IMG/VR virus record: IMGVR_UViG_3300044627_002021
Location: 1-25,293 of that record
Source of the DNA: a virus
Length of the DNA: 25,293 bases
Reading direction: 5' to 3' (one strand)
This document shows positions 3,259 through 7,256 of this stretch, piece by piece. Both the position numbers and the translations under genes were made by a program. The notes under the pieces are model-generated. The model was not told the origin of the DNA and searched no databases. It was given only the letters and a program-made list of their open reading frames with translations. The first letter of the stretch is position 1, and each line of letters begins with the position of its first letter.

Positions 3259-3266
3259 CAAAGTTA
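3259..3266 (-). promoter_or_regulatory. -7-like element (TAACTTTG) abutting terS start
   Basis: The minus strand reads TAACTTTGCATTATG up to the terS start codon. TAACTTTG fits the Bacteroidota -7 consensus TAnnTTTG, but no TTTG lies about 20 nt upstream. If it is used, transcription would begin at or next to the ATG, giving a leaderless message. A near-identical arrangement precedes the tail tube gene (20872-20879). Confidence 0.3.
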
Positions 3267-3308
3267 GTTAAAATATTTCTTTTACATAAAAAGCAAAAAG
3301 TAATGTTT

Positions 3309-3495
3309 GGTAATAGGTAATAGGTAAATCACTTATAAAGTATAAGTATATATATATATACTCTATATTATTATGGTTTTTACTATTACCTTATTACCTT
3401 GCTTGTAACTAATTGATTATTAAAGACTTAAGAGGTAATAAAATGGTAATAGCTTATTACCAAAAAAGGCATAAAAAAGGGTAATGGTTATTACC
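3309..3495. repeat. Cluster of GGTAATA heptamers (iteron-like; candidate replication origin or packaging/operator site)
   Basis: In the 268-nt gap between the helicase-like gene and terS, GGTAATA occurs exactly at 3309, 3316 (tandem), 3434 and 3445. Its complement TATTACC occurs exactly at 3384, 3392, 3455 and 3489. One-base variants lie at 3323 (GGTAAAT, two changes) and 3480 (GGTAATG). Copies at 3445/3455 and 3480/3489 form dyads. Between the left and right groups is an alternating TA tract (about 3347-3360), a plausible easily melted element. Eight exact copies on the two strands in about 190 nt is far above chance for a heptamer. The site sits next to the primase and helicase genes, favouring an origin, but also next to terS, so a packaging signal is possible. 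Confidence 0.7.
3473..3495 (-). terminator. Rho-independent-like terminator after the helicase-like gene
   Basis: On the minus strand, downstream of the stop at 3523, GGTAAT-AACC-ATTACC forms a perfect 6-bp stem with a 4-nt loop, followed by C and TTTTTT. It is built from two of the GGTAATA-type repeats, so the same bases may work as a protein site in DNA and as a hairpin in RNA. The stem is AT-rich and therefore weak; termination is likely to be partial. Confidence 0.45.
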
Positions 3496-3522
3496 AAAAC
3501 CCTTTCTTTTATTACTAATAAA

Positions 3523-4857
3523 TTAAACCTTTTTATAATATTTGTCATCTGCTTTTATAACATATTTACCTTTATACTTTTGTCTAAAAGTTATTAAAAA
3601 GTACTTAGAAGAACATTTAAGCTGCAAACAAATATCGGCGGCATCCTTTGCGGTAAATTTATCGGGTAATGAATTATACAACTCTAACTGTTTGCCTTCT
3701 AAATCGGTTTGAGTAGTATTGTTTATTTCGGTAAGTAATTTAATAGCTTGGCTCTTAAAATAATAAAATACTTTTTCAGAGTTTTGCACATCAATAATAT
3801 CTATTATTGGGGATTTATGATTTCTTATAATAGAGCAAATCAATGTAAGTCTATTATAATAAGCAAACATCTTACCTAAATATCCAATTAGTAGTTCACT
3901 TACATCGCCTTCCCTTCTATTTTTTATAATTATATTGCTTTCAGATGTTATTCTATTTCTTGTATCGTTAAACAATATTTTTGCTTCATCGGTAAATTTT
4001 ACCCATCTTGGATTACCTTCCGTATAAAATACCCCTATATTAAACAAATGCTCAATAATAGATTCCCAATGTACGGTTACTCTACTTTTAACACTAAAAG
4101 CATCCCTATTGGCGTTTAATTCTACATAATCCGATGAAACAAATAAGAACCTATTAAGCAACCCCGATTCAACGGCTTGTTTATTAAACATCTCATTTAT
4201 TCGCTTTGATTGCATCCCCGTAAGTACGCTAATAGCAGGATTTGTAACCCTATTTTCCAAAGTTGGATCTTTTCTAAGGTCATCAATAGTTTTACCATTC
4301 CAAACGTTATTCCAAAAATCAACGGAATTGTTATCCTTAGTATACGAACCCCCTTGATAAAGTTTTTTCCCTTCGTCAAAATATACCCCAAAACCCGCAT
4401 GATTTGTTGAAGCATATTTTGTAATCGCTTCTAAGGTAGCGCCCGATGCGCTTCTAATTATACGAATAGGTCTTGGATCGGTAAATACTGTATTATTTGC
4501 CTTAGCTTTCATTTTAGCTATTTCCCATTCTTTTTCTTTTGTAGCATAATCTTTATATAATTTATCTGCCAAAGGCTCTATTATATCGCCAAAAACAAGG
4601 TCATAGGCTTTTGTCTTACCTATTGAAGATGGACCAACCATCATGCAATAAAGTATTGATTTCATTTCTCCGCCCAATTGAGTTGTAAACATATTGCCAG
4701 AAAGGGAAGCGACCGCCCATAAAGCGGAAACTGCAATATAATCAACAGGCAATGAATATTCTTTTGCAAGGTCTTTAAATGATTGCTCTACAATAGGCTC
4801 GAATATTTCTAGCGGAAATGTTTCGTTTGTGTTTTCTAACTTTAAATTAATTAACAT
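3523..4857 (-). CDS. DUF3987-type primase-associated helicase/ATPase
   Basis: A 444-aa protein with the layout of DUF3987 proteins. An N-terminal helical region (PLEIFEPIVEQSFKDLAKEY, then YIAVSALWAVASLSGN) leads to a Walker A, GPSSIGKT (residues 75-82), then a Walker B-like acidic segment, GFGVYFDEGKKLY (about 155-167), and an SVLTGMQ..GLLNRFLFVSS segment typical of the family's C-terminal ATPase half. A possible winged-helix-like tail ends the protein. DUF3987 proteins are linked to AEP primases in phages and mobile elements and are thought to be the replicative helicase. Here the primase gene lies 3 nt upstream, which supports a primase-helicase pair. It is followed by a terminator-like hairpin and the GGTAATA cluster. 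Confidence 0.8.
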   Translation of the reverse strand: MLINLKLENTNETFPLEIFEPIVEQSFKDLAKEYSLPVDYIAVSALWAVASLSGNMFTTQLGGEMKSILYCMMVGPSSIGKTKAYDLVFGDIIEPLADKLYKDYATKEKEWEIAKMKAKANNTVFTDPRPIRIIRSASGATLEAITKYASTNHAGFGVYFDEGKKLYQGGSYTKDNNSVDFWNNVWNGKTIDDLRKDPTLENRVTNPAISVLTGMQSKRINEMFNKQAVESGLLNRFLFVSSDYVELNANRDAFSVKSRVTVHWESIIEHLFNIGVFYTEGNPRWVKFTDEAKILFNDTRNRITSESNIIIKNRREGDVSELLIGYLGKMFAYYNRLTLICSIIRNHKSPIIDIIDVQNSEKVFYYFKSQAIKLLTEINNTTQTDLEGKQLELYNSLPDKFTAKDAADICLQLKCSSKYFLITFRQKYKGKYVIKADDKYYKKV

Positions 4858-4860
4858 AAT

Positions 4861-6057
4861 TTACCAATTTGAAGGAAATGAATAATCTTTATTAACCCAT
4901 ATTCTTTGACCGTTGCAAGAATCTAGCAAACAATTTGGCTCAATAATATCTTTAATTTGTTCTTTTGTGTATTTATTTGGGGAATCTAAGATAGTCCATG
5001 TATAATTAGGAGCAACCAAATGCATAAAAAAAGCCAATAATTTATTGTCAACGCTATATGTACCATCTTCACCAAAATATGTTTCTTGACCGTAATTATC
5101 AATATGTAGTTTCAATAAATCCTTTTTAACGTACTTTAAAAGCCATTTTAGCACTTTAAACGAATATTCGGGCATTGGTAGTTGTTTTGTAGAGTGCTGC
5201 GCCTTATAAGACCTATAAACAAGTGTAATCGGTTTTATTAAATCTAAATGTGTTATATGAGTTTTATGAGCAAATGTATCAATAACAAATGCTTTGCAAG
5301 TATCTTCGTGCATCCCTACCAAATTACAATACGCGGCTATTCTTAATAAATAATGATGTTTATATCCATCCTCAAAATTGCCCCATAAATTAGCGTTTTC
5401 TATTGCATGGCTAAAAGTACGAATGCTATTAACATTTCTTGATGGCTTAAATTTTATCTTTGGTTCTTCATTTTCGTATTTGTCATTCGGCAAAGCTAAT
5501 TCCGCTTCATCAAACAAACGTATTTTAGCATTTGGATCGTAGCTTGAAAATCTTACCCTTACTAAGTCTTTACATTGAATATCAATAGTTATATTAATTG
5601 CCGCAAGTTCATGCATTATAGTGTTGAATACTTGAAAATGATGGGCTGGTAATATTTTAAATATAACCGCCAAACCTTTACCCGATGCACTAATAAAAGC
5701 CGAAACAATAGATTTGCCATTTATAAATAAATCATCTCTCAACTTACCCCAATCCTCTATATGTGGGTTATTGTGTGCATCAATATCAATACAAATCAAT
5801 CCTGTATGTTGTATTATGTTTTCGGTATTTCTCCAATCTTTACAAACACTACTAACGGTAAAGCATGGAAGTTTCGCGGCTTTAAATGTTCGCTTTTCTT
5901 CATGGTCGGTTATTGTGCGAAGTTGGTTTATTATATCTATATGCTTACCGCTTATAATATCTTCTATCTCTTGTTCTAATGTAGAATCGTAAGGAATACA
6001 ACCAGCCGTTGTTTTGCCTTCTTTGTTGGTGTATGGATGGTAAGAACTTATTTGCAT
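4861..6057 (-). CDS. AEP-type primase/polymerase (BT4734/VirE N-terminal domain)
   Basis: A 398-aa protein. Residues 60-175 carry the signature of the archaeo-eukaryotic primase-like domain known in Bacteroidota as the BT4734/VirE_N domain. These are the metal-binding acidic pair ICIDIDAHNN (Asp91 and Asp93), the SASGKGLAVIF segment (123-133) and the third site DLVRVRFSSYDP (164-175). A helical region and a C-terminal PriCT-like or winged-helix segment follow (KEQIKDIIEPN). It probably primes phage DNA replication. It overlaps the upstream PD-(D/E)xK nuclease gene by 10 nt and sits 3 nt from the DUF3987 gene, so all three are likely co-translated. The C-terminal half is not assigned. Confidence 0.8.
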   Translation of the reverse strand: MQISSYHPYTNKEGKTTAGCIPYDSTLEQEIEDIISGKHIDIINQLRTITDHEEKRTFKAAKLPCFTVSSVCKDWRNTENIIQHTGLICIDIDAHNNPHIEDWGKLRDDLFINGKSIVSAFISASGKGLAVIFKILPAHHFQVFNTIMHELAAINITIDIQCKDLVRVRFSSYDPNAKIRLFDEAELALPNDKYENEEPKIKFKPSRNVNSIRTFSHAIENANLWGNFEDGYKHHYLLRIAAYCNLVGMHEDTCKAFVIDTFAHKTHITHLDLIKPITLVYRSYKAQHSTKQLPMPEYSFKVLKWLLKYVKKDLLKLHIDNYGQETYFGEDGTYSVDNKLLAFFMHLVAPNYTWTILDSPNKYTKEQIKDIIEPNCLLDSCNGQRIWVNKDYSFPSNW

Positions 6058-6599
6058 TGCTTGTACTTTTCAATATTAAAAAAAGTAGGGTTCAATGAAT
6101 CCCAAATAATATAAGTATTTATAACTAACCTAAAATTTCCTACTCCTTTATTGTCATAAAACTTTTGCATTTCACCAAATCCATGTGCTTTGTATAAGTA
6201 CGAATTTACGTTATTATGCGCTCCAGCTGAATACGGCTTTTCTACATCATGTTTTGCAACCCTTTCACCTTCATCAAGATACCAACCACTAATTTGAGGA
6301 GCAATAAATATTAAAGGTATATGATTGTTAAATTCTAGTTTAGTATATTCGGATGCTTGGTTGCACCAATCTCCAATATGACCGCCTCTTTTAACGCTTG
6401 TTTTTTTTAACTCAATACCAATAGGATAATCTTTGTTCAAATCGGTATTATGGTACATCAATAAATCAATTCTACGTTTTTTGCATTTTGAAGTAATTTC
6501 TGAAAATACATTAAAATTAGTTTTAAAATAATTAAATACCTTGTCTTGTAATACTTTTTCAGGTAATGCTTCAAAGTTGTATCTATCTTGTGTTGCCAT
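6048..6599 (-). CDS. PD-(D/E)xK nuclease-like protein
   Basis: A 183-aa protein with a probable restriction-endonuclease-fold core: a helix (LQDKVFNYFKTNFNVFSE, Glu34), then RRIDLLMY with Asp45, then YPIGIELKKTS with Glu63-x-Lys65, i.e. the order E...D...ExK. The rest (IPLIFIAPQISGWYLDEGER and NTYIIWDSL) looks like further strands of the same domain. In this replication block the enzyme could be a recombination or resolvase nuclease; a restriction function is less likely because the methyltransferase is three genes away. No Shine-Dalgarno is present: the ATG follows directly on an 8-U tract that ends the structured RNA at 6600-6731, so expression may depend on read-through of that element. 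Confidence 0.6.
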   Translation of the reverse strand: MATQDRYNFEALPEKVLQDKVFNYFKTNFNVFSEITSKCKKRRIDLLMYHNTDLNKDYPIGIELKKTSVKRGGHIGDWCNQASEYTKLEFNNHIPLIFIAPQISGWYLDEGERVAKHDVEKPYSAGAHNNVNSYLYKAHGFGEMQKFYDNKGVGNFRLVINTYIIWDSLNPTFFNIEKYKQCK

Positions 6600-6676
6600 A
6601 AAAAAAACCTGAGAAGTGGTCTAGGGTAGAAGCGAAAAAACCGCGTTAGTTTTTTCTCCTAAACCGCCCTCTCAGG
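6600..6676 (-). terminator. Intrinsic terminator formed by the S2 stem and U8 tract
   Basis: The 17-bp stem between 6658-6676 and 6608-6625 is followed immediately by eight U (6607-6600) on the minus-strand RNA, the form of a strong rho-independent terminator with a large structured loop. The U-tract abuts the start codon at 6599. Termination here would release a roughly 110-nt RNA; read-through would express the nuclease, primase and helicase-like genes. Confidence 0.6.
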
Positions 6677-6717
6677 CGTTTCTTTTGATTAATTATATTA
6701 CGGCTTCTACCTCGTAA
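6600..6717 (-). ncRNA. Structured RNA, H-type pseudoknot with internal hairpin (novel candidate riboswitch/attenuator or sRNA)
   Basis: Three helices can form together on the minus-strand RNA. S1 pairs 6710-6703 with 6633-6626, 8 bp, perfect (GTAGAAGC/GCTTCTAC). S2 pairs 6676-6658 with 6625-6608, 17 bp including two G-U pairs, with one 2x1 internal loop. An inner hairpin pairs 6656-6649 with 6641-6634, 8 bp, perfect (GAAAAAAC/GTTTTTTC). The 3' strand of S1 lies in the loop of S2 and directly abuts the 3' strand of S2, which is the topology of an H-type pseudoknot with coaxial stacking. The RNA ends in eight U and then the ATG of the nuclease gene. A good Bacteroidota promoter lies just upstream. 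I recognise no known RNA family; an HDV-like fold was considered and lacks the linker and P4 between S1 and S2. Confidence 0.65.
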
Positions 6718-6723
6718 CTTGTA

Positions 6724-6754
6724 CAAATATACTATAAACTCATTACATAATCAA
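6724..6754 (-). promoter_or_regulatory. Bacteroidota-type promoter for the structured RNA
   Basis: On the minus strand a -33 TTG at 6754-6752 is followed after 20 nt by TATATTTG at 6731-6724, an exact fit to TAnnTTTG. The predicted start, near 6717, lies 6-7 nt before the 5' strand of the first helix of the RNA at 6600-6717. It overlaps the end of the upstream VRR-NUC gene. Confidence 0.6.
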
Positions 6755-7256
6755 TAAAGCTAAAAAATTCTTGCGGGTTATGCACTACCGCATATAATCC
6801 GCCTGTTGAATTTATCTTGCGTTCATATTCTTTCTGATCTTCGCTTTGCTTATCCTTAATCTTTATTTCAATATAAACAGGTAAGCCATATTTATGATTC
6901 GGAGTAACTATGTGCCCTTTCAAATCGCTTGTTCCTTTTGAGCCAGTGCCTTTGCGCCACTCAATGCCGCCGTCTAATTGTTCTAATTTGCCACTAAATA
7001 TATTGAATTTCGGTATCTTCTTTTTTACAGGAACTCCCATATTATTAGTGCGCTCTAAATGTCCATTAGTCCATTTGATGTAATTAGCGCAAAAGGTTGT
7101 TAATCCATTGGCAGTTTTTACTTTGGGTATTATCGGAGCGGAATAATGCCCATCGGCATATCCTTGAGCATATTTTATTTTACTCATTTCCTCATGTGCA
7201 TTGCAATAGCGACTTTTCCACGATTCTTTCATATCGTTACATTTTTTACATCCCAT
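6732..7256 (-). CDS. VRR-NUC domain nuclease
   Basis: A 174-aa protein ending in a VRR-NUC fold, the virus-type replication-repair nuclease subgroup of the PD-(D/E)xK superfamily: WRKGTGSKGTSDLKG with Asp111, then VYIEIKIKDKQSEDQ with Glu130-x-Lys132 and Gln137/Gln141, then GGLYAVVHNPQEF. The N-terminus carries CKKC (Cys3, Cys6) and YCNAH (Cys18, His21), which looks like a small zinc site fused to the nuclease. Phage VRR-NUC proteins are thought to act as structure-specific nucleases or resolvases. The start overlaps the end of the zinc-ribbon gene upstream by 28 nt. The first Cys residues depend on the start at 7256, which the overlap supports. Confidence 0.8.
   Translation of the reverse strand: MGCKKCNDMKESWKSRYCNAHEEMSKIKYAQGYADGHYSAPIIPKVKTANGLTTFCANYIKWTNGHLERTNNMGVPVKKKIPKFNIFSGKLEQLDGGIEWRKGTGSKGTSDLKGHIVTPNHKYGLPVYIEIKIKDKQSEDQKEYERKINSTGGLYAVVHNPQEFFSFIDYVMSL

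Follow-up and report, generated by a model that had tools for sequence, protein, structure and literature searches.

A short RNA is predicted on the minus strand of the window, the whole 25,293-nucleotide stretch of viral DNA that was analysed, in which the loop of a 5' hairpin pairs with the loop region of the intrinsic terminator that ends the transcript. Relatives carry quite different sequences in the same slot with the same architecture. Judged by these comparisons, the RNA fold is under selection, with pairing kept while the letters change almost completely. Our tentative interpretation, which we put at close to an even chance, is that the RNA is the attenuated leader of a phage replication operon and that it also yields a short terminated RNA.

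The RNA lies on the minus strand in an intergenic gap of 132 nt, which is bounded by the stop codon of a VRR-NUC-like gene (7256–6732) and the ATG of a gene of 183 amino acids (6599–6048). A promoter of the Bacteroidota type (consensus TAnnTTTG) was identified from its −7 box, TATATTTG (6724–6731, minus strand), located directly 3' of the upstream stop codon, and from a −33-like TTG (6752–6754, minus strand) within the end of the upstream gene, with a spacer of 20 nt between the two. Among relatives the TTG shows loose conservation only, and TAnnTTTG is found 3–22 nt 5' of hairpin 1, except in L066, which has no box; these relatives were fetched via protein homology and not via the box. The predicted RNA (6600–6718, minus strand; about 115–118 nt) would begin near 6718 and stop where the U tract ends. 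Its folding energy is −38.1 kcal/mol (z −4.6), far below that of shuffled sequences.

Hairpin 1, predicted by folding and with counterparts in relatives, occupies 6697–6718 (minus strand); its arms are 6718–6713 (GTTACG) and 6702–6697 (CGTAAT), and its loop comprises the 10 nt 6712–6703. The terminator hairpin, S2, was obtained from the fold (6608–6676, minus strand; arms 6676–6658 and 6625–6608) and has 17 bp with one bulge and one mismatch. Within it, the fold contains an apical hairpin, S3, of 8 bp (6634–6656, minus strand; arms 6656–6649 and 6641–6634). The U8 tract of the terminator (6600–6607, minus strand) adjoins the ATG at 6599. The first kissing strand, GGTAGAAGC (6703–6711, minus strand), is located in the loop of hairpin 1 and is complementary to the second, GCTTCTACC (6625–6633, minus strand), between the apical hairpin and the 3' arm of the terminator. 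Helix S1 comprises 8 bp (6710–6703 with 6633–6626), and C6625 can either extend it to 9 bp or close S2, never both. No further occurrence of GGTAGAAGC was found in the window in either direction.

A preliminary description of the locus, made from the letters of the window, had located the TTG, the 20-nt spacer, the −7 box, S1, S2, S3, the U8 tract and the ATG at 6599, and each of these coordinates was base-for-base correct. Its pseudoknotted RNA of about 110 nt running from promoter to terminator is likewise supported, at a length of about 115 nt, by the fold and by the architecture shared with relatives. It had classed S1 and S2 as an H-type pseudoknot. The interleaved pairing is real; the class was revised because the 5' strand of S1 sits in the loop of hairpin 1, a helix that had not been listed, so that S1 is a loop–loop (kissing) contact with the internal loop of the terminator and not a simple H-type pseudoknot.

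In L005 and L007 the relatives of the nuclease have 75–77% protein identity and the intergenic DNA is unrelated; both have the box, a hairpin, a second hairpin, a terminator and a match of 7–8 nt between first and last loops. Further versions of the RNA were obtained through relatives of the VRR-NUC-like gene. Some pairs of RNAs differ in the kiss by one compensatory base pair, namely L010 and L065 (GTTCGAG/CTCGAAC versus GGTCGAG/CTCGACC) and L005 and L011 (ATTGCGG/CCGCAAT versus ATTGCAG/CTGCAAT). The upstream proteins of L010 and L011 are 97–98% identical, yet their loop alleles have been exchanged as a pair. Among RNAs of the window type, L004 has an A–U pair in place of a G–U pair in the terminator, and L047 has lost one base from each terminator arm and has its apical stem swapped for a different paired sequence. 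In L065 and L007 the 7-nt loops are entirely paired loop to loop, and in pseudoknot-free folds of 18 RNAs the kissing strands were left in loops in most members. L054 and L073, which have different upstream contexts, have a 6-bp kiss in common (CTGCCA/TGGCAG) and a similar terminator loop, through either common ancestry or convergence. L066 (1805–1915) has a 6-bp loop match (GTGGCA/TGCCAC), a hairpin 1 reduced to 3 bp and no promoter box; it is a possible decayed copy and was left out of the RNA counts.

The complementarity of the loops was evaluated by permutation of partners. Cognate loops of 17 distinct RNAs have 6–9 complementary bases, with a mean of 7.18 against 3.02 for mismatched loops, and none of 200,000 permutations (loops only) equalled this; since loop boundaries were set by eye with the match already known, the cognate values are too high in absolute terms, a bias that is offset partly, not wholly, by permuting partners among the same loops. 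When the hairpin 1 loops of 12 RNAs were compared with the terminator regions, cognate pairs gave 7.25 nt and non-cognate pairs 4.06 nt (0 of 100,000 permutations). Across 84 loci (635 kb), a promoter-anchored scan, independent of the by-eye loop choices, returned 17 matches scoring at least 50, every one of them in the slot that corresponds to that of the window; many of these loci are overlapping stretches of one contig, and identical sequences were counted once. Among 1300 shuffled boxes no match reached 50 and the maximum was 44; the settings of the scan had been relaxed once, after true cases missed by its first version were seen. In an alignment of six RNAs (A6), 20 of the 28 pairs are changed on both sides, including six of the seven pairs of the kissing helix. 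The structure pairs in 92.3% of the cells of A6, against 37–45% when slid, with L007 shifted by one column, to the disadvantage of the structure; no shuffle out of 500 reached any of the measures. For hairpin 1, the alignable group shows two-sided changes in eight of 12 stem pairs. The preliminary description had made its proposal depend on compensatory changes in the helices, and such changes are present among the relatives, both in the cognate-loop permutations and in A6.

Cultured phages were reached only via the architecture scan, which covered a few hundred kilobases from such phages. The RNA was found in Flavobacterium phage 11b (8-bp kiss CGGGCAGG/CCTGCCCG, score 59) and in elemoA (kiss TGAGAGC/GCTCTCA, score 57). 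Candidates in mumin6-4 (46.6), Cellulophaga phage phi13:2 (43.2) and phi19:3 (47.2) scored lower, within the range of noise or barely above it; these weaker assignments rest on position as well as score, the candidates in phi13:2 and phi19:3 lying in the gap before the replication initiator and that in mumin6-4 at the border of the early and replication genes. Other sub-threshold matches, scoring 35–45 elsewhere, are probably noise. No convincing copy was found in the phages or stretches scanned from BK735P3, PM682P3, ctfjg026 (27 kb), 1/32, 6H, Porphyromonas phage005b, phiSM (15 kb), P12024S and RAP44. In related phages (L067–L072 and L074–L079) the slot before a DnaG-like gene holds a plain hairpin and a T run, with no box and no kiss.

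Searches with tblastn using the two flanking proteins returned no cultured phages. A 21-mer scan of 84,980 species genomes gave no prophage or host copies, and the VRR-NUC profile found no relative among genomes. The preliminary description had recognised no known family, in agreement with a covariance-model search against Rfam 15, which at the gathering cut-off gave no match in the window or in 17 loci holding relatives except one tRNA; permissive thresholds gave weak sub-threshold matches only. Tyrosine integrases were absent from all 12 viral records searched, most of them fragments, and lysogeny is thus not indicated.

The upstream gene of the window (6732–7256, minus strand) encodes a VRR-NUC-like nuclease of 174 amino acids (phrog_824); its relative in L025 gives a weak Pfam VRR_NUC match, below the cut-off. 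The gene before the RNA is usually VRR-NUC-like, in differing versions (L004, L007), which is partly a sampling effect since relatives were mostly fetched through that gene; cultured phages are a fairer sample, and the gene is of another kind in 11b, L047 and L073. In L004 the window's RNA and nuclease are present, but the VRR-NUC-like gene upstream (2061–2552 of L004) is different from that at 6732–7256 of the window. The similarity switches near the promoter box, the last shared bases lying about 10 nt upstream of it, which would fit a recombination boundary at the RNA.

Downstream, the variable gene of 183 amino acids (6048–6599, minus strand) was recognised by eye from its motif as encoding a PD-(D/E)XK-like protein. 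It has no Pfam or PHROG match and lies outside the conserved unit. Across relatives the gene right after the RNA is PD-(D/E)XK-like, HNH, GIY-YIG, DUF6378, a small ORF, a helicase or an initiator. In the slot directly after the RNA (6048–6599 in the window; also in L010, L014, L016 and L020), small nucleases, often of homing type, replace one another, among them HNH, GIY-YIG with NUMOD3 and PD-(D/E)XK-like proteins. The RNA stays in place while genes on either side are swapped (L011/L012, L002/L004, window/L048); by DNA scan and protein matches, L047 has almost the window RNA and L048 the same RNA, before quite different genes. A nuclease-linked element was considered and rejected, since the RNA persists where the nuclease has been replaced or is missing.

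The recurrent feature is a downstream block of replication-initiator, primase or helicase genes with the same orientation, in most cases separated from the RNA by one or a few small genes. In the window this block comprises a gene with a BT4734-like primase N-terminal domain (4861–6057, minus strand; PF08800) and a DUF3987 helicase gene (3523–4857, minus strand; PF13148, phrog_2373). The RNA precedes primase/helicase or initiator genes in the window, L007, L010–L012, L014, L045, L047, L048, L065, L073 and L080, and replication genes are also downstream in the cultured phages 11b, elemoA, mumin6-4, phi13:2 and phi19:3; in L025, L016 and L054 the next genes are not replication genes. No iterons marking an origin at the RNA were found. 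Between the DUF3987 helicase and small terminase genes of the window there is an AT-rich gap (3281–3500) with a 34-nt direct repeat and inverted repeats, and a TAACTTTG box is located at 3266, just before the small terminase gene; this is a possible late promoter or origin region.

In the leader model, transcription would start at the 5' edge of hairpin 1. Most transcripts would end in the U tract as a short RNA with a hairpin closing each end, and some polymerases would continue into the replication genes. The terminator loop exits the polymerase ahead of the 3' arm of the terminator, so that the kissing helix can be the first to form; it would then set the speed or firmness with which the terminator closes, and the loop pair would tune how much short RNA is made relative to replication mRNA. 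For several members, calculations on truncated transcripts favoured the kiss as long as the 3' arm had yet to be made. No conserved antiterminator opposing the 5' arm of the terminator was found in these transcripts, pairing of the arm with upstream sequence amounting to 0–0.31, so that the kiss would tune termination and not exclude it. A classical on/off antiterminator switch is accordingly disfavoured, there being no alternative fold that excludes the terminator. The 800 nt downstream of the terminator contain no TAnnTTTG box in ten of 19 cases, among them the window, and the replication genes there seem to depend on readthrough. Counting against the leader model are candidate boxes that certain replication genes have for themselves further downstream, the possibility that early promoters upstream transcribe the replication genes, and the gene order in L016, L025 and L054 noted above.

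The main rival is a stand-alone small RNA, trans-acting or structural, with a host target or a protein as its partner; the terminator would merely end the RNA, and the position would reflect a compact genome order. We regard this as possible, though improbable; it overlaps the leader model, the short RNA being present in both. The preliminary description had offered an attenuator or a stand-alone phage small RNA, and both remain plausible here. The rival accounts for the RNA having its own promoter box and terminator and both ends sealed by hairpins, for the compatibility of all helices, as expected of a stable end product, and for the persistence of the RNA through the three neighbour swaps named above. 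A target-pairing seed would be expected to remain constant, yet every loop changes, and the terminator would block the replication genes if there were no readthrough.

Two further rivals give the short RNA or the leader a more specific role. In the first, which resembles self-recognition by the CI RNA of phage P4, the free short RNA would use its exchangeable loops to pair with leaders of its own phage type as they are being transcribed, and would halt transcription of the replication genes. This is unlikely, as is its proposed outcome of feedback and type-specific superinfection control. The position of the leader before replication genes, a short stable RNA, the pairwise exchange of loop alleles between L010 and L011 and the P4 precedent, in which CI RNA pairing terminates the replication operon (PMC4825925), speak for it; however, both partners are present in one molecule and the in-cis kiss should win, and no tyrosine integrase was seen in the 12 records. 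Extra copies of the kissing sequences, sought as targets in trans, are not in excess in most contigs: the window, L010, L048 and L065 have only the pair, and other contigs are mostly at chance level. In its broadest form, a long shot in our estimation, these would be a widespread phage RNA family whose sole conserved property is a self-matching loop pair, an exchangeable identity code by which the short RNA throttles a replication operon of the same type, its own or that of a superinfecting sibling. In the second, the RNA would be a regulatory leader of homing-type endonuclease genes that limits their expression, as the frequent HNH, GIY-YIG with NUMOD3 and PD-(D/E)XK-like genes in next position and the terminator hairpin adjoining the start codon might suggest. 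We consider it very improbable: L012, L045, L047, L065 and L073 have the RNA without any nuclease, and RNA and nuclease are not co-inherited. The preliminary description had placed the nuclease, together with the primase and helicase genes, under an attenuator; a specific link to the nuclease is not supported, because the next gene varies and identical RNAs precede different genes (L011 versus L012; window versus L048).

A ligand-sensing riboswitch, also envisaged there, would fit the order of promoter, compact pseudoknotted leader, terminator and gene, but a binding pocket would need conserved unpaired nucleotides, of which there are none across 17 RNAs; with no alternative antiterminator fold and no Rfam match, small-molecule sensing is most unlikely. 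An ordinary terminator with chance complementarity, to which the terminator kept in the slot of related phages lacking the RNA might point, is refuted for the family as a whole by the cognate pairing (0 of 200,000 permutations) and by the scan, in which none of 1300 shuffles reached the cut-off.

The leader model, if correct, adds a regulatory design in which a terminator is engaged through loop–loop pairing. The structured RNA is invisible to homology searches because its sequence is unconserved, and it recurs before replication genes of freshwater and marine Bacteroidota phages. Phage RNAs can be found by cognate loop complementarity instead of sequence similarity, and replication timing in Bacteroidota phages, cultured phages included, becomes testable in the laboratory.

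Several known RNAs share individual features with the one described here. Packaging RNA of the phi29 type has a diverged sequence, a kept fold and covarying interlocking loops; these loops pair between molecules and serve packaging. The present RNA resembles it as a phage RNA of diverged sequence with a retained fold and covarying loops, but here pairing is possible within one molecule and the RNA lies beside replication genes; the packaging RNA belongs to a DNA-packaging module of small terminal-protein phages, and the window phage has a Terminase_3-type large terminase. RNAI and RNAII of ColE1 are transcribed from opposite strands and form a kissing complex of entirely paired 7-nt loops, as the loops of L065 and L007 do, whereas here a single RNA is involved. 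In type III toxin–antitoxin systems, ToxI is a tandem-repeat pseudoknot RNA with the ToxN endoribonuclease downstream. The order of promoter, pseudoknotted RNA, terminator and ORF is the same, but the present fold is single-copy, with no tandem repeats and no constant partner gene, and the downstream genes that were scanned had no Pfam match to a ToxN-like endoribonuclease.

IsrK of prophage Gifsy-1 provides an example of one promoter giving both a terminated short transcript and an mRNA produced by readthrough (PMC4825925), the two products that we infer here. Its target is the translation of an anti-repressor gene, and no kissing terminator loop is described for it (PMC4825925); its sequence and host phylum are unrelated. 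The closest parallel in organization is the leader and CI RNA of the satellite phage P4, where the CI RNA pairs with seqA and seqC and terminates the replication operon (PMC4825925). A structured leader before replication genes, a short RNA and termination governed by RNA–RNA pairing are common to both, though predicted in the present case. The P4 CI RNA is processed and pairs in trans at separate sites, in contrast to the intramolecular loop-to-loop pair and own terminator found here; separate target sites of the seqA and seqC type were not encountered in the window, L010, L048 or L065, and neither sequence nor model matches the kissing leader RNA. No published description of such an RNA was found in a search outside the subscription literature. 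The kind, a leader RNA or phage small RNA, is known; the kiss of a 5' hairpin with a terminator loop, conserved free of sequence, appears to be a new form of it.
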